Positions 18,408 through 24,978 of a DNA stretch of 64,000 nt are shown here, one piece after another; positions within the stretch are counted from its first letter, which is position 1, and each line of letters starts with the position of its first letter. The stretch is from Vicinamibacteria bacterium (GTDB taxonomy: Bacteria; Acidobacteriota; Vicinamibacteria; Fen-336): the NCBI GenBank assembly GCA_035570235.1, contig DATMML010000015.1, forward strand, positions 62,001 through 126,000, written 5' to 3'. The notes under the pieces were generated by a model, which had not been told where the DNA came from, ran no database searches, and saw nothing but the letters and a program-made list of their open reading frames with translations. A program made the translations under genes and the position numbers.

Positions 18408-19442
18408 ATGCGACTGAGAACGCGACTCCACCAGACCGCCCGCATAGTCGCCAAGCTCTTCCTGGGTCTCATCGATCGTGATCGTCCGCTCCTCGTCCAC
18501 ATCATCCCCATGCGGCGTTGCAATCTGTCCTGCTCCTACTGCAACGAGTACGACGCCGTGTCCTCCCCGGTGCCGATCGAGGTCATGCTCCGAAGGATCG
18601 ACCTTCTGGCCGACCTGGGCACAGGCACCATCACCGTCAGCGGCGGGGAGCCGCTCATGCACCCCGAACTCGAGGCCATCGTCGCCCACATCCGCAAGCG
18701 GGGCATGATCGCGACCCTGATCACCAACGGTTATTACCTCTCCCGGGAGCGCATCGAGCGGCTGAATCGCGCGGGCCTCGACCACCTGCAGATCAGCGTC
18801 GACAACGTGGAGCCGGATGAGGTGTCGAAGAAGAGCCTGCGGCTCCTGGAGCCGAAGCTCCAATGGCTGGCCGCCCACGCCCGGTTCACGGTGGCGATCA
18901 ACTCCGTGATCGGAAGCAGCATCCGCAATCCCGAAGATGCCCTGGTCGTGGCGCGGCGCGCCCAGGAGCTGGGCTTCGCCAACTCCCTCGGCATCGTGCA
19001 CGACGGCGCGGGCCAGCTCCGGCCGCTGGGGGAGCGCGAGATGGACGTGTACCGCCAGCTCCGCAAGATGGCCTCGCGTTGGAGCCCCGTCCGCTTCAAC
19101 GCCTCGTTCCAGGACAAGCTGGCGCGGGGGCTTCCCAACGACTGGAGCTGCCGGGCGGGATCGCGCTACCTGTATGTCGACGAGGCGGGCACCGTTTCGT
19201 ACTGCTCGCAACAGAGGGGCACCCCGGGCATCCCTCTCGAGGCCTACACCCGCGACCGCCTCCGCCTCGAGTTCAACACCCGCAAGCCTTGCGCCCCCTA
19301 TTGCACCGTGAATTGCGTGCAGCAGGTGGCCTTCCTGGACCGATGGCGGTCGCGGCAGCGGGAAGTGGCCCTGCCTGTCGTGCCACCCGCCGCCACCCCC
19401 GCACCCGCGGCCACGCCCGGGGACGGAGCCCTCGCCGGTTGA
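18408..19442 (+). CDS. Radical SAM protein with SPASM-like C-terminus
   Basis: 344 residues. The 4Fe-4S/SAM motif is Cys38-x3-Cys42-x2-Cys45 in CNLSCSYC, followed by ITVSGGEPLMHPEL and the later barrel strands. The C-terminus has further cysteines (SCRAG, VSYCSQQ, KPCAPYCTVNCVQQ) that could hold an auxiliary cluster. The substrate is unknown. The start is ATG 18408 (MRLRTRLHQTARI), with GAGG upstream. Its stop overlaps the TTG start of the reductase, so it belongs to the lipid-like cluster. A role in modifying a lipid chain or head group is inference; peptide-modifying SPASM enzymes are the other possibility, but no precursor peptide was seen. Confidence 0.82.
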   Translation: MRLRTRLHQTARIVAKLFLGLIDRDRPLLVHIIPMRRCNLSCSYCNEYDAVSSPVPIEVMLRRIDLLADLGTGTITVSGGEPLMHPELEAIVAHIRKRGMIATLITNGYYLSRERIERLNRAGLDHLQISVDNVEPDEVSKKSLRLLEPKLQWLAAHARFTVAINSVIGSSIRNPEDALVVARRAQELGFANSLGIVHDGAGQLRPLGEREMDVYRQLRKMASRWSPVRFNASFQDKLARGLPNDWSCRAGSRYLYVDEAGTVSYCSQQRGTPGIPLEAYTRDRLRLEFNTRKPCAPYCTVNCVQQVAFLDRWRSRQREVALPVVPPAATPAPAATPGDGALAG

Positions 19443-20251
19443 GCAGGCCGGACGGCCCCGAGGCCGGTTTCCGCGCCCTCGTTACGGGGGCCTCCAGCGG
19501 GATCGGCGTGGCCTTCGCGCGCGCCCTGCGGGCAAAGGGCGAGAAGCTCGTTCTCGTGGCCCGACGTCGTGATCGGCTTCAAGAGCTCTCCCGCGAGCTC
19601 GGGGGAGAAGACACCGCCGCCGTCCTGGCCGCGGACCTCACCGAGCCGGGGGCGATCGATCGGCTGGCGGAGGAGATCCGGGCCAGCGGGTTCGTGGTCG
19701 ACCTCTTGGTCAACAACGCGGGAGCGGGCCACACCGCGCGTTTCCACGAGGAGCCCCGGGAGACCGTCCTCGGCATGATTGACCTGAACGTGCGTGCATT
19801 GGTCGCCCTTACCCACGCGTTCCTGCCCGGCATGATCGAGCGCGGGCGAGGGCGGATCATCAATGTGGCTTCGAACGCCGCCTTCCAACCCGTGCCTTTC
19901 CTCACCGTTTATGCCGCCACCAAGGCCTTCGTGCTCTCCTTCACCGAGGGCCTGGCCTCCGAACTCGAGGGAACAGGGGTCAGGGTGCAGGCCCTCTGCC
20001 CGGGCCTCACCGCCACCGAGTTCCTGGAAGTGGCGGAAACGGGGCCCGGCCTGCTCATCAACCGAATGCCGGCCATGTCCGCTCAGGACGTGGTGGCCTG
20101 CTCGCTGCGCGGTCTGGAGCGGGGACGCCTGCGGGTCGTGGCCGGCCTCACCAACCGCTTGATGGCCGGTGTGCAACGCTTGGTGCCGAGGTCGATCGTG
20201 CGCGGGGTCGCGGCCCAGCTCTACCGGCCGCGCTCCGGTGGCTCCTCTTGA
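19439..20251 (+). CDS. Short-chain dehydrogenase/reductase
   Basis: 270 residues from a TTG start coupled to the upstream stop (TTGA). Classical SDR: TGASSGIG (16-23) binds NAD(P); NNAG (92-95); catalytic Ser145, Tyr158 and Lys162 in VASNAAF and YAATK. Basic residues ARRR after strand 2 favour NADPH. It lies directly before an alpha-oxoamine synthase, so the natural guess is a 3-ketosphinganine-type reductase acting on that enzyme's 3-keto product. A 3-oxoacyl reductase role is the alternative. Fusion-like open sequence upstream is out-of-frame overlap with the radical SAM gene. Confidence 0.85.
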   Translation: MSRPDGPEAGFRALVTGASSGIGVAFARALRAKGEKLVLVARRRDRLQELSRELGGEDTAAVLAADLTEPGAIDRLAEEIRASGFVVDLLVNNAGAGHTARFHEEPRETVLGMIDLNVRALVALTHAFLPGMIERGRGRIINVASNAAFQPVPFLTVYAATKAFVLSFTEGLASELEGTGVRVQALCPGLTATEFLEVAETGPGLLINRMPAMSAQDVVACSLRGLERGRLRVVAGLTNRLMAGVQRLVPRSIVRGVAAQLYRPRSGGSS

Positions 20252-20377
20252 GGGCACGGCTTTCTTAACCGGGGGGCTTCCCTGGGGCCGGTTCCGCTGG
20301 TAGAATGTCGGGTCACTTCGTGAGACCGACCGGCGCTCGGGGGTCAAGAGCGCACTTCAGACGAGAGAGGATCATTT

Positions 20378-21670
20378 ATGGAGGCGGCCCCGAAGAAGGA
20401 AGCCGGCAAGACGGCGTTCACGGACTACGACTACAGCAATTTCTACTACGGGGCCGGCGACGACCCCCTGAACCTGCTCGCCCCCTTCAACGACTGGTAC
20501 CAGGAAGCCCTCCCCAACGGCTACTACCTGTACTCGGAGCCCTTGTCCACCGCGCCCTCCACCCGCGTCACCGTGCGCAGCCGGAAGACCGGCGAGATCC
20601 ACGAACTCATCAACATGGCTTCCTACAACTACCTCGGTATCTCCTACCGCGAGGAAGTGAAGGAGGCAGCCATCGAAGCAACCCGCAAGTACGGTCTGGG
20701 GGCTTCGGGTTCGCCCATCCTCTCCGGCACCTTCGAAATCCACAACGAGTTGGCCGCGGAGGTGGCCGCGTTCAAGGACAAGGAAGCGGCCATCTTGTTC
20801 CCGACCGGCTACAGCGCCAACGTGGGCTTCATCTCCAGCGTCATGCGGGCGGGCGACACCATCCTCCTCGACCAGTACTCCCACGCCTCCATCGTGGACG
20901 GGGCCATCCTGGCCAAGTCCAAGACCGTCTTCTTCCGCCACAACAATCCACTGGACCTCGAGCGCAAGCTCACGGGGGTGAAGGGCAAGAAGCTGGTCGT
21001 GGTGGAGGGTGTCTACTCCATGGACGGGGACGTGTGCCTTCTCCCCGAAATCGTGGAGGTCGCGAAGCGCCATGGGGCCCGTATCCTCATCGATGAGGCC
21101 CACTCCACGTTCCTCTTCGGGGCCAACGGCCGCGGGGTGGCCGAGCACTTCGGCCTGGACAAGGAGGTGGACTTCCACCTGGGCACGTTCTCCAAGAGCC
21201 TGGGCGGGCAGGGCGGCTTCGTGTGCGGGACCCGCGCCCTCATCGACTACGTCAACGCCTTCGGTCGCTCGCGGTTCTTCTCCTGCAACCTGGCTCCCAA
21301 CATCGCGGCCGGCCTACTGGCTGGGCTGCACATCGTGGAGCGGGAGCCCCAGCTCCGGGCCCGGCTCTGGAGCAACGTGGCCTTCCTGCGTCGGCGCTTC
21401 GCGGAGGAGGGGATCGACATCGGCAAGTCCACCTCCCAGGTCATGCCCGTGATGGTCAACAACGACGCCAAGGTCTTCGCCATCGCGGAGAGAGTCCAGG
21501 AGCGCGGCCTCTTCCTGAACCCCGTGACGTACCCCGCCGTGCCCAAGCACAAGTCTCGCCTCCGCATCTCCGTCTCCGCCGCCCACAGCGAGCAGGAGCT
21601 GGAGACGGCGGTCCAGGTCATCGCGGGCGTGCTGCGGGAGGCAGGCATCATCCGGGCCGAGGGGGCATGA
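20378..21670 (+). CDS. Alpha-oxoamine synthase (serine palmitoyltransferase/AONS/KBL family)
   Basis: 430 residues of fold-type I PLP enzyme. The PLP lysine is Lys273 in GTFSKSLGGQGG; DEAHS at 239-243 binds the cofactor; MASYNYLGIS near 80-89 and YGLGASGSPILSGT near 105-118 are family hallmarks. Family members condense an amino acid with an acyl-CoA or acyl-ACP, releasing CO2. The long N-terminal lead with an NGYYLYSEPL stretch resembles serine palmitoyltransferases more than the short AONS/KBL forms, so a long-chain base product is favoured by context (reductase, lipid kinase and CDP-alcohol transferase alongside). AGAGAGG lies upstream of ATG. The 126-base gap before it is the only real gap in the cluster and holds a TAGAAT hexamer at 20301. 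Confidence 0.88.
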   Translation: MEAAPKKEAGKTAFTDYDYSNFYYGAGDDPLNLLAPFNDWYQEALPNGYYLYSEPLSTAPSTRVTVRSRKTGEIHELINMASYNYLGISYREEVKEAAIEATRKYGLGASGSPILSGTFEIHNELAAEVAAFKDKEAAILFPTGYSANVGFISSVMRAGDTILLDQYSHASIVDGAILAKSKTVFFRHNNPLDLERKLTGVKGKKLVVVEGVYSMDGDVCLLPEIVEVAKRHGARILIDEAHSTFLFGANGRGVAEHFGLDKEVDFHLGTFSKSLGGQGGFVCGTRALIDYVNAFGRSRFFSCNLAPNIAAGLLAGLHIVEREPQLRARLWSNVAFLRRRFAEEGIDIGKSTSQVMPVMVNNDAKVFAIAERVQERGLFLNPVTYPAVPKHKSRLRISVSAAHSEQELETAVQVIAGVLREAGIIRAEGA

Positions 21671-22338
21671 CCCTGACCCGTTACGGGTACCGCAACGCCA
21701 TCAGCGGGTTTTTCGAGTTCCCAACCGAGAACGCCCGCCGGATCCTCCCTCGCCACCTGGAGCCGGCGGAACTGCACCATGGCAGCAGCATCTTCTCCTT
21801 GACCGCCTTCGACTTCACGGAGAGCGAGGTGGGAGCGTACGGGGAAGTGGTCATGTCGGTGATCGTGGCGCCCCTCATCAAGCCGGGGGAGAAGCTGCCC
21901 AAGTCCGCGTTCTACCCCTACCTGGTCGCCACCACCACCAAGGCCGCGCGCGACCACGCCATCGAGCGCTGGCACCTGCCGCACTGGATGGAGGACGTGG
22001 GGGTGGTCTTCCAGCCCCAGGGTCGCACCATCACGGCCCGCGTGGCGGCAGACGGAGCCCCGGTGGCCGAGCTGACCATTACCGACTACTCCTGGCAAAA
22101 GGTCTCCCACCTCTATCAGTCCTTCATGAAAGACGACGAGGGGGCGTACCTGGCCAACATCACCATGGAGGGGAGCCAGAGCGAGCACGAGGAGGAGACG
22201 GGGCGCCTCAAGCTCCACGAGCACCCGTTCAACAAGGATCTGGCCATCTCCGAGATCTACGAGAACCCCTTCCGCGAGCTCTGGATGCGCGACGGCGGCC
22301 AGACCTTCGAGCCCCTGATCCAGCTCCAGACCGCCTGA
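21667..22338 (+). CDS. Acetoacetate decarboxylase-fold protein lacking the expected catalytic lysines
   Basis: 223 residues. The start ATG overlaps the alpha-oxoamine synthase stop (ATGA). The ADC superfamily pattern is seen in YPYLVATTTKAARDHAIERW followed by LPHW, VFQPQGRTITARVAADG and the late TLxxY-like strands. In true acetoacetate decarboxylases the equivalent loop reads GYPKK, whose lysine forms the Schiff base. Here it reads HLPHW, so by eye the nucleophile is missing. It may therefore be a binding or chaperone-like protein, or an enzyme using other chemistry on a beta-keto lipid intermediate. Functional assignment is open. Confidence 0.7.
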   Translation: MTLTRYGYRNAISGFFEFPTENARRILPRHLEPAELHHGSSIFSLTAFDFTESEVGAYGEVVMSVIVAPLIKPGEKLPKSAFYPYLVATTTKAARDHAIERWHLPHWMEDVGVVFQPQGRTITARVAADGAPVAELTITDYSWQKVSHLYQSFMKDDEGAYLANITMEGSQSEHEEETGRLKLHEHPFNKDLAISEIYENPFRELWMRDGGQTFEPLIQLQTA

Positions 22339-22358
22339 GCGCAAACGACGCCATCTTC

Positions 22359-23237
22359 GTGGTCTTCAACCCCCACTCGGGCAAAGGGCGGGGAGCGCGG
22401 TTCGTGGAGCCCGTCCTGGCCGCGCTCGCCCCCGCCCCCGCCCTCGAGCACGCCCTGACCACCGCCCCGGGGGACGAAGCCCGGCTCACGGAGTTGGCCT
22501 TGGCCCGTGGCTTCCGGAAGATCGTGGCCGTGGGGGGGGACGGCACCTGGAGCAATGTGGGCAACGCCATCCTCCGCTCCGGCCTCCCGGCCAGCCTGGG
22601 CCTGGTGCCCGGGGGCACGGGATGTGACCTCGCCAAGTCGCTCGGCATTCCCGGCCGCGACGTCCCCGCCTGCGCGCGCATCATCCTCGGCGGCCACACC
22701 CGGGCCATCGACGTGGGTCGCATCGAGGACCGCTACTTCCTCAACATCGCCGGCTTCGGCTACGACGTGGCCGTCATCGAGGACTCCTGGAGCGTCGGGT
22801 ATCTCGAGGGAGAGCCCCTCTATCTCTACTGCGCGCTGCGCCAGATCGGGTCCTTCGAGGGATTCCCGGTCGACCTCGAAGCGGACGGTGCTGCTCTGGG
22901 CCGACAGGACCTGCTCATGCTGATCCTGGCCAACGCCCGCGTCTTCGGGGGGGGATTCCAGATAGCCCCCCGGGCCGAGCTCGAGGACGGGCAGCTCGAC
23001 GCCATGGCCTTCCGCAATATGGGACTCTTCGCGCGCCTCGGCATCATGGCCCGGCTGCTCCGAGGCACGCACGAGGGGTCGGGGAGGGTCACCGCGACCC
23101 GCGCCCGGAGCTTCCGCCTCCGGTTCGACCGCCCGCCCACCTACGAGACGGACGGGGAATGGAACCGCGCCAAGGGGACGGACCTCCGCGTGGATACTGT
23201 TTCTCGGGCCCTGCCGATCCTCGTCCCCCGGCCGTGA
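22359..23237 (+). CDS. Diacylglycerol/long-chain-base kinase family protein
   Basis: About 292 residues. The kinase signature VAVGGDGTWSNVGNA (GGDGT at 59-63) and PGGTGCDLA (the usual PGGTxND with Cys for Asn) are seen, with NIAGFGYDVAVIE and the C-terminal beta-sandwich. It phosphorylates a lipid hydroxyl with ATP at the membrane. The first clean start is GTG 22359. However, the frame is open back to a CTG at 22335 that overlaps the previous stop (CTGA) and would restore the first strand, so the true start may be there. Its place suggests ceramide- or sphingoid-type lipid phosphorylation; diacylglycerol kinase is the alternative. Confidence 0.85.
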   Translation: MVFNPHSGKGRGARFVEPVLAALAPAPALEHALTTAPGDEARLTELALARGFRKIVAVGGDGTWSNVGNAILRSGLPASLGLVPGGTGCDLAKSLGIPGRDVPACARIILGGHTRAIDVGRIEDRYFLNIAGFGYDVAVIEDSWSVGYLEGEPLYLYCALRQIGSFEGFPVDLEADGAALGRQDLLMLILANARVFGGGFQIAPRAELEDGQLDAMAFRNMGLFARLGIMARLLRGTHEGSGRVTATRARSFRLRFDRPPTYETDGEWNRAKGTDLRVDTVSRALPILVPRP

Positions 23238-24235
23238 GCTCGCCCCCCGTCGCCCTCCGCGAGGCCATTCGGGCCCGGACCCGGCCCGCGGTGGCGCGGG
23301 CGGCGGCGGCGGCGGCCGCGCAGGTGCTGGCCCAGGCCGCGGGGGCCGAGCTACGGGGTGTCGTCTTCTTCGGCTCGCGCCGCACCGAGGCCGGGGCCGA
23401 CCCCTGGAGCGCCTACGATTTCTTCGTTCTCACCCGCGCCTATCGGGGCTTCTACTCCGCCCTCCGGAAGGCAGGGAAGGTGAAGCGGAGCCCGGCCGTC
23501 CTCGCCCTCCTCAACGCCCTCCTGCCCCCGAGCCAGGTCTCGCTCTGGCTCGGCACCCCCGACGCCCCCCTGCATGCCAAGTGCTCCGTGCTCTCCTTCA
23601 CCGCCTTCCTCCGGGAGACGTCGAGGCGGCGGCACGACCACTTCTGCATCGGGCGGCTCTTCCAGCCTAGCGAGATCGTGCACGCGGCCGACGAAGCCAC
23701 CGCCGAGCGTATCCTGGACGGACTGGTGAGCGCGCATGAGGAGACCTACCGGTGGGTGCGCCCCTGGCTGCCGGCACAGTTCGACGCCGAGGCCTACGGG
23801 CGCACATTGCTGCGGGTCTCGATGGCACGGGAGATCCGACCCGAGCCTCCCGGTCGGGCGGACGCCCTCTGGGAGGTCCAACGCCGCGAGCAGGGCCCCG
23901 TCTACGCCCTGCTTCTGGAGACGCTGGCGGCCGGGGGCGAGCTCCGACCCTCGGGGGAGGCACCCGGCACTTACCAGCTGGTCCGGCCGGTCTCCGCGGC
24001 GGAGCGACTGGGTATCCAGGCCTACTTCGCTTGGTCCCTCCTCCGCGCTACCGCCCGCTGGGGCAAGCACGTCTTCACCTTCGAGGGCTGGCTCGATTAC
24101 ATCCTGCGCAAGGCGCGCCGGCACGTGGGGGAGGAGATCGTCCTCAGCCCCCGCGAGCGCCGCTGGCCCCTGCTCTTCCTCTGGCCCCGGTTCTTCCGAT
24201 ACCTCCGCCGCCGGGGCCGCGGAGGGCCGCCGTGA
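23234..24235 (+). CDS. Tam41-like nucleotidyltransferase (putative CTP:lipid-phosphate cytidylyltransferase)
   Basis: 333 residues; GTG start overlapping the kinase stop (GTGA). After an alanine-rich helix comes a nucleotidyltransferase-type signature, FFGSRRTEAGADPWSAYDFFVL (Gly47-Ser48, with acidic Asp56 and Asp62). By eye the order of segments recalls mitochondrial Tam41/Mmp37, the CDP-diacylglycerol synthase: the YGSG...DF motif, a later KCSVLSFTAFL strand, an FCIGRLFQPSEIV segment like the Tam41 AGRLHKP motif, a WLPAQFDAEAYGRTLLRVS segment, and a helical tail. If right, it would make a CDP-activated lipid from the product of the upstream kinase for the CDP-alcohol transferase that follows. 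This is inference from motif order and context. Confidence 0.6.
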   Translation: MSSPPVALREAIRARTRPAVARAAAAAAAQVLAQAAGAELRGVVFFGSRRTEAGADPWSAYDFFVLTRAYRGFYSALRKAGKVKRSPAVLALLNALLPPSQVSLWLGTPDAPLHAKCSVLSFTAFLRETSRRRHDHFCIGRLFQPSEIVHAADEATAERILDGLVSAHEETYRWVRPWLPAQFDAEAYGRTLLRVSMAREIRPEPPGRADALWEVQRREQGPVYALLLETLAAGGELRPSGEAPGTYQLVRPVSAAERLGIQAYFAWSLLRATARWGKHVFTFEGWLDYILRKARRHVGEEIVLSPRERRWPLLFLWPRFFRYLRRRGRGGPP

Positions 24236-24978
24236 CCGCGGCCTTCCCGGTCTTCGCCGTGGTCCTGGCCGCCGCTCTCCTCTCCATCGCGGTATACGGG
24301 CTCTTGCCTCGGAGGGACGCCGATGCCGACCGCAGGGGCTCCCGGTTCCTGCTCGGGCTCGGCGATTTTCTCCTGCACTGGTTCCTGTGGGCGATCGGCC
24401 CCGCCGAGAGGGCCGCCCTCCGCCTCGGCCTCACCCCGAGTGGCCTGAACGCGACGGGCCTCGGCCTCGGGATTCTGGGCGGTCTTTTCATCGGTTTCGG
24501 GGGCCTGGAGTTGGGGGGGTGGGCCATCGTGCTCTCCGGGGTCTGCGACGTGCTGGATGGTCGGATCGCACGAGCCCGCAGCCTCACTTCCGCTTACGGG
24601 AAGTTCATGGACAGCACCCTCGACCGCTTCGTGGAGGCCTTCACCTTCCTGGGCTTCGCGGCCTACCTCCGCCACCGGCCCTGGGGATCGTTCATGGCGA
24701 CGGCTGCCCTCGCCGGATCCCTGCTCGTGAGCTACGCCCAGTCCCGGGGCGAGACCGTGGGAGTGACGGGCGCGGGCGGCCTCATGCAGCGCGGGGAGCG
24801 CCTGTTACTCATCTGCTTGGCCTGCCTCGTCGACCCCACCCTCACCCTCTGGCGTGCGCAACCTGAGGGAACGATCGTGGTCTGGGTGCTGGCTTTCATA
24901 GCCGTCGCCACCTTTGGCACCGCCATCTATCGGACGGCCTGGATCGCAGGTCGGCTTCGGGGACACGGGGATCCCTGA
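24232..24978 (+). CDS. CDP-alcohol phosphatidyltransferase
   Basis: 248 residues with about six membrane helices. The full family signature is present: Asp106-x2-Asp109-Gly-x2-Ala-Arg ... Gly123-x3-Asp127-x3-Asp131, in CDVLDGRIARARS and AYGKFMDSTLDR. These integral enzymes displace CMP from a CDP-activated substrate with an alcohol or polyol. An extra N-terminal helix (VFAVVLAAALLSIAVYGLL) precedes the core. GTG start overlaps the preceding gene (GTGA). Being last in the cluster, it most likely attaches the head group to the CDP-lipid; the alcohol (inositol, glycerol or other) cannot be read. Confidence 0.9.
   Translation: MTAAFPVFAVVLAAALLSIAVYGLLPRRDADADRRGSRFLLGLGDFLLHWFLWAIGPAERAALRLGLTPSGLNATGLGLGILGGLFIGFGGLELGGWAIVLSGVCDVLDGRIARARSLTSAYGKFMDSTLDRFVEAFTFLGFAAYLRHRPWGSFMATAALAGSLLVSYAQSRGETVGVTGAGGLMQRGERLLLICLACLVDPTLTLWRAQPEGTIVVWVLAFIAVATFGTAIYRTAWIAGRLRGHGDP

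Follow-up and report, generated by a model that had tools for sequence, protein, structure and literature searches.

How head groups are attached through phosphate to bacterial sphingolipids is only partly known. The closest described system is a Caulobacter locus that comprises the serine palmitoyltransferase (SPT) gene spt, CC_1159 (cpgA), CC_1160 (cpgB), which encodes a ceramide kinase, and CC_1161 (cpgC) (PMC11324152, PMC10331486, PMC12275187). CC_1161 has a cytidine diphosphate-diacylglycerol (CDP-DAG)-synthase domain and is required for ceramide phosphoglycerate, and a nucleoside diphosphate-activated ceramide has already been suggested for it (PMC11324152). A missing enzyme is suspected in the step after ceramide-1-phosphate, and the same paper describes the locus for Proteobacteria only (PMC11324152). 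Here, we analyzed a cluster of seven genes, A to G, in a 64,000-nucleotide stretch of DNA (G000:C15:62001-126000; the window hereafter) from the 5.7-Mb genome of a Vicinamibacteria bacterium, which an earlier note had read as a new CDP-lipid pathway. Using computation, we established the families, folds, key residues, linkage and conservation of these genes, and the results make it rather likely that the cluster produces a phosphosphingolipid-type membrane lipid, with glycerophospholipid logic applied to a sphingoid backbone. All seven open reading frames (ORFs) lie on the + strand, in the order that the earlier note had given:

18408..19442, + strand: A, radical SAM protein with CxxxCxxC at the N-terminus; peripheral
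19439..20251, + strand: B, short-chain dehydrogenase/reductase (SDR); candidate 3-keto reductase
20378..21670, + strand: C, alpha-oxoamine synthase (Aminotran_1_2) of the serine palmitoyltransferase side
21667..22338, + strand: D, acetoacetate-decarboxylase-fold (ADC) protein; core gene
22335..23237, + strand: E, lipid kinase of the DAGK/YegS family with GGDGT; candidate sphingoid or ceramide kinase
23234..24235, + strand: F, Tam41-fold nucleotidyltransferase; candidate CTP:lipid-phosphate cytidylyltransferase
24232..24978, + strand: G, CDP-alcohol phosphotransferase (CDP-OH_P_transf) of the phosphatidylinositol-phosphate (PIP)/archaetidylinositol-phosphate synthase kind

Both the profile and the predicted fold of the sixth ORF, F, match Tam41, as the earlier note had proposed from the letters. 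Searches of Pfam, NCBIfam and the PDB with the single sequence returned nothing useful; the family profile and the fold were informative. A profile of 47 relatives had Tam41 as its first PDB match (E 1.8e-4), and Foldseek of an AlphaFold2 model (pLDDT 92.9) returned Tam41 structures as its top five matches, including the CTP-Mg complex, with TM-scores by target of 0.54-0.60, while the other matches listed reached at most 0.37. The conserved GS...D, K, R, (E/D)xR set of Tam41 is present in F, and the residues in common are G47, S48, D62, K116, R141, E200 (D in Tam41), R202 and E204. Since canonical CdsA is encoded in all 19 of the genomes of the class that carry F, F is not needed for CDP-DAG.

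The synthase C had a Sphingobacterium SPT as its top PDB match. In a tree of 37 rows, which has long branches among the reference rows, C fell on the SPT side, split from KBL, AONS and ALAS at 100/97, and the C proteins of the clusters formed one separate clade (100/100) on a long stem branch. The SYNYLG and DEAHS motifs are as in SPTs, and a separate KBL-like gene is found elsewhere in the window genome. A sphingolipid-type synthase, as the earlier note had it, therefore holds, and the grouping with AONS/KBL that would have spoken against it was not seen in the tree. As C scored below the curated SPT models (366.5 bits vs 640 for CFB and 345.5 vs 500 for BetaP), we use the name SPT-side synthase, which commits to no particular amino acid.

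The best PDB matches of the G profile were PIP synthases (E about 1e-27). The CDP-alcohol phosphotransferase motif, D106xxD109G110xxA113R114..G123xxxD127xxxD131, is invariant in the G family, and so are S167, R190 and R234, equivalent to S132, R155 and R195 of MtPIPS, which bind or act on inositol phosphate (PMC4634129). This inositol-phosphate set also occurs in a PIP-synthase-like protein (L004) and a G paralogue (L006) of the window genome and is lacking in its CDP-alcohol enzymes L001, L002 and L003. We describe G as "PIP-synthase type" and not as a member of either family, because it is under the curated cut-offs for PIP synthase (87.2 vs 170) and archaetidylinositol-phosphate synthase (112.7 vs 180). 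The G paralogue (L006:1333-2085) lies directly after a gene for a flippase-like membrane protein and possibly belongs to another CDP-lipid system.

Of the 193 genomes of the class, 19 have a relative of F, and the species-wide collection has 53 such loci, in Acidobacteriota, Gemmatimonadota, Eisenbacteria, Krumholzibacteriota and Latescibacterota; two of the 53, weak relatives in Myxococcota, stand alone. Gene presence was counted over the 39 loci in which 5.5 kb or more of sequence lies upstream of F. Besides F, the core consists of D (39 loci), E (38), G (37), C (35) and a gene outside the window cluster, H, which encodes a PlsC-family acyltransferase (37), whereas a zinc-dependent medium-chain dehydrogenase/reductase (MDR; ADH_N, ADH_zinc_N) was present in 19, SDR B in 11 and radical SAM A in 5. 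The conserved set of the earlier note thus stands for C, D, E, F and G, which recur together, and not for the SDR or the radical SAM gene, and H belongs to the core in addition. With 5 of the 39 loci, A is outside the core, and we dropped the idea that it is a core gene. In the gene order of the window all cluster genes are on one strand, and in other loci they are split into two divergent operons, C-D-E and H-F-G; as a single unit or as two operons these modules recur in five phyla, with C-D-E the tightest operon throughout. The Tam41-like activator, the SPT-side synthase and the CDP-alcohol transferase are therefore one conserved unit, and the neighbours are linked in related genomes, where unlinked neighbours would have told against the earlier reading. 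C orthologues are present in 21 of the 193 genomes and F in 19, with both in 18 (Fisher p 2.6e-21, kinship ignored), and the linkage of the cluster genes is more than chance. Nearly all loci are on contigs of metagenome-assembled genomes, and their agreement over many independent assemblies makes mis-binning unlikely as its cause. Some Gemmatimonadota loci (L076, L077, L081, L082, L091) hold D, E, H, F and mostly G without an adjoining C.

H is missing from the window cluster and from two sister clusters, and all three genomes carry an unlinked H-like gene, which in the window genome is at G000:C11:1461-2210. A quick tree placed the three unlinked genes within the H family and separate from three further PlsC genes that the window genome carries. 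H would thus supply the second acyl chain that the scheme of the earlier note had left out. The H-like gene of the window genome (L106 / L135) adjoins a glycerol kinase gene and groups with H of Gemmatimonadota and of another acidobacterial genus and not with that of its own family, hinting at replacement by transfer.

The genes of the window cluster are closely coupled, with five start/stop overlaps (TTGA at A/B, ATGA at C/D, CTGA at D/E, GTGA at E/F and GTGA at F/G) and a gap of 126 bp between B and C. The earlier note had listed four of these overlaps, all of which are there, and CTGA at D/E is additional. Kinase E probably starts at the CTG of this overlap, since no in-frame ATG, GTG or TTG occurs before the GTG at 22359, a start that would cut the conserved first strand. 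The family labels given from the sequence (radical SAM, SDR, alpha-oxoamine synthase, ADC, lipid kinase and CDP-alcohol transferase) agree with domain searches, weakly for ADC. E carries the DAGK_cat and YegS_C domains, and the top NCBIfam match of SDR B was a mycolate reductase, under the cut-off. In about 20 loci without the SDR (L057-L094), the MDR gene ends the C-D-E operon after E, an apparent non-orthologous replacement of the reductase. It was the sole useful outcome of clustering the flanking ORFs, which otherwise gave mostly antisense ORFs and unrelated genes.

The ADC-fold protein D matched the Pfam ADC family weakly (26.6 bits vs a cut-off of 29.8), and its 24 best PDB matches by fold were all ADC-fold proteins; a PDB sequence search with the family gave chance lipoxygenase matches only. 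No lysine is invariant among the 33 sequences of the family, which makes the Schiff-base chemistry of acetoacetate decarboxylase unlikely in D. The gene is as conserved as C and always adjoins C where C is present. The earlier note had given it no role, and none could be demonstrated here.

We propose a pathway whose substrates, order of steps and head group we infer from the families and residues above. C would condense an acyl thioester with an amino acid, serine being the likeliest, and the ketone of the resulting 3-keto long-chain base would be reduced by B, or by the MDR enzyme elsewhere. E would then phosphorylate the 1-hydroxyl. The PlsC-like H would acylate the middle carbon, the reaction that PlsC carries out on lysophosphatidate, and so supply the second chain. 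F would activate the lipid phosphate with CTP to a CDP-ceramide analogue, and G would exchange CMP for a phospho-alcohol. The likeliest one is inositol 1-phosphate, made by the inositol-1-phosphate synthase of the genome, so that the product is probably an inositol phosphosphingolipid. The type of synthase, the CTP activator and the transferase are as in the earlier scheme; the second acylation by the PlsC-like gene of the relatives is not. The full proposal is a CDP-ceramide or CDP-sphingoid pathway in which the Tam41-like F makes the activated sphingolipid, the PIP-synthase-type G converts it directly to an inositol phosphosphingolipid and a PlsC-like enzyme adds the second chain, an ancient parallel of the CDP-DAG route in Acidobacteriota, Gemmatimonadota and several candidate phyla. 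We advance this whole set of claims tentatively, as a serious possibility short of an even chance.

Several observations weigh against this proposal. F has no Pfam match, including to Tam41_Mmp37, and a search of the window genome with the Pfam Tam41 model (PF09139) gave no match. C has GSPILSGT where known SPTs have GSR-LNGT, and at the position of K135 of MtPIPS, 27 of 30 G proteins have R and three, among them the one in the window, have Q. Inositol-1-phosphate synthase is so widespread in the class (170 of the 193 genomes) that finding it is hardly informative. We rejected it as a co-occurrence marker for this reason, and its gene is unlinked to the cluster. No function fits the core gene D, and acylation in Caulobacter is carried out by a different N-acyltransferase (CC_1154). 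Finally, in G205, a genome of the same family that is 98% complete, C, D and G remain but F, H and any orthologue of E are missing, so G can exist without F, with its donor gone. The G205 locus (L133, G205:C120:26000-42000) is a natural loss of E-F-H, and the joint loss supports these three genes as a module.

E, H, F and G could instead carry out ordinary glycerolipid metabolism, from diacylglycerol to phosphatidate, CDP-DAG and PIP, with C, D and B producing some unrelated lipid and sharing no more than the operon with them. In other systems, DAGK, PlsC, Tam41 and PIP synthase all belong to glycerolipid metabolism, and the retention of C, D and G in G205 would suit such a division. However, all 19 carriers of F in the class already have CdsA, and the window genome has another PIP-synthase-like gene. 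Across all phyla no operon is tighter than C-D-E, which joins the synthase to the kinase, C and F are inherited together over the 193 genomes, and in Roseomonas the F member stands between a kinase and an SPT gene. Loss of CC_1161 in Caulobacter stops the formation of ceramide phosphoglycerate. We therefore regard a glycerolipid role as unlikely. It is more improbable still that F activates the head group, for example as CDP-inositol, for G to join to a free lipid hydroxyl. CpgD is a head-group cytidylyltransferase in the similar Caulobacter locus (PMC12275187), and an alternative inositol-lipid cluster of Bacteroides and Prevotella is thought to activate the head group (PMC9246714), but the fold of F is that of Tam41, a phosphatidate cytidylyltransferase, and not that of CpgD and IMPCT. 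Activation of the head group would also leave the lipid kinase without a purpose, and G has retained the site at which PIP synthases take a phosphorylated acceptor.

Within the phosphosphingolipid reading, C may make an atypical sphingoid base and G may add glycerol phosphate, phosphoglycerate or another phospho-alcohol. The GSPILSGT motif and the long stem branch of C are consistent with this, as are the unlinked inositol-1-phosphate synthase and the phosphoglycerate head group of Caulobacter, but the kinase depends on a free hydroxyl, and serine would provide one at C1, and the nearest structures and the residues of G are those of inositol-phosphate enzymes. We consider this variant doubtful, at something like one chance in a few. 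The lipid reading would be wrong altogether if C were an AONS/KBL-type enzyme or a secondary-metabolite synthase, which we judge very improbable. The bioF model scored slightly above the SPT models for the one relative of C tested, and all C scores are under the curated cut-offs; against this, the tree places C with the SPTs, the SYNYLG and DEAHS motifs agree, the window genome has its KBL-like gene elsewhere, and C nearly always occurs with a lipid kinase and a CDP-alcohol transferase.

A Tam41-like activator beside an SPT gene, which the earlier note had regarded as new, has precedents. The Caulobacter locus, in the order CC_1159-CC_1160-CC_1161-spt, has the same plan (PMC11324152), and on Roseomonas plasmids genes for a CDP-alcohol phosphotransferase, a kinase and an F-family nucleotidyltransferase are directly convergent with genes for SPT and an acyl carrier protein, which places the F-family member in this same gene order. 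The R. mucosa SPT passes a curated SPT cut-off, the Roseomonas kinase and CDP-alcohol phosphotransferase scored weakly against the E and G profiles (16 and 22 bits), and the plasmid locus also encodes LptF/G, a GNAT protein, an NTP transferase and a phosphoesterase, which gives it the gene set of the Caulobacter phosphosphingolipid locus. The Roseomonas gene order and the reported domain of CC_1161 suggest that F is kin to CC_1161; with this presumed CpgC-type nucleotidyltransferase, the linked SPT, lipid kinase and CDP-alcohol transferase genes are those of a Caulobacter-type pathway. The ceramide N-acyltransferase, AcpR and LptF/G are not among the genes common to the cluster loci, although they are present in Roseomonas, where the acyltransferase is of the GNAT type. 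Because its plan already exists in the Caulobacter and Roseomonas loci, the cluster is not a wholly new pathway. It is a variant of a partly known one, occurs in other phyla and uses different enzymes for acylation, reduction and transfer. Plasmids of Diaphorobacter (pDCB2, L143; predicted conjugative) and Pseudomonas (pPNP1, L144) carry an F-family nucleotidyltransferase, a lipid kinase, CDP-alcohol transferases and LptF/G-like permeases, that is, head-group and export genes of a sphingolipid locus on mobile DNA.

If correct, the proposed CDP-ceramide pathway would explain the role of CpgC in Caulobacter, and as the Tam41-like gene is regularly followed by the PIP-synthase-type transferase, activation and transfer can be tested as a pair. 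The proposal also predicts sphingolipids in soil and aquatic phyla that are abundant and largely uncultured. We found no report of these: literature searches that paired sphingolipids with Gemmatimonadota or with Acidobacteria returned nothing of relevance, and the term CDP-ceramide was not found in the literature searched.

Compared with known systems, the cluster resembles the Caulobacter locus in combining an SPT with a kinase of the DAGK family, a nucleotidyltransferase like CDP-DAG synthase and a CDP-alcohol transferase. Caulobacter differs in making ceramide first, with CC_1154, CerR, a dedicated acyl carrier protein, LptF/G and CpgD, whereas the cluster has a PlsC-like enzyme, an ADC-fold protein, a kinase of another subfamily and a PIP-synthase-type G, and is found in other phyla. 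The genes BT1522-BT1526 of Bacteroides thetaiotaomicron likewise use a PIP-synthase-type transferase and an inositol-1-phosphate synthase for inositol sphingolipids (PMC9246714, PMC8791184), but there inositol phosphate is transferred onto CDP-DAG and an AUR1-like enzyme then passes it to ceramide, and that cluster contains neither a kinase nor a Tam41-like enzyme. Tam41/Mmp37, the mitochondrial CDP-DAG synthase, has the fold and the GS, D, K, R, E/D, R and E residues of F, at 10-14% identity and with a different C-terminal part; F lacks the Pfam Tam41 match and, unlike Tam41/Mmp37, adjoins SPT-type genes in genomes that already have CdsA. The glycerophospholipid route, with DAG kinase, PlsC, CdsA/Tam41 and PIP synthase, uses the same four families in the same logical order, and the cluster differs from it in being coupled to an SPT-type synthase and a reductase, with canonical CdsA kept separately.

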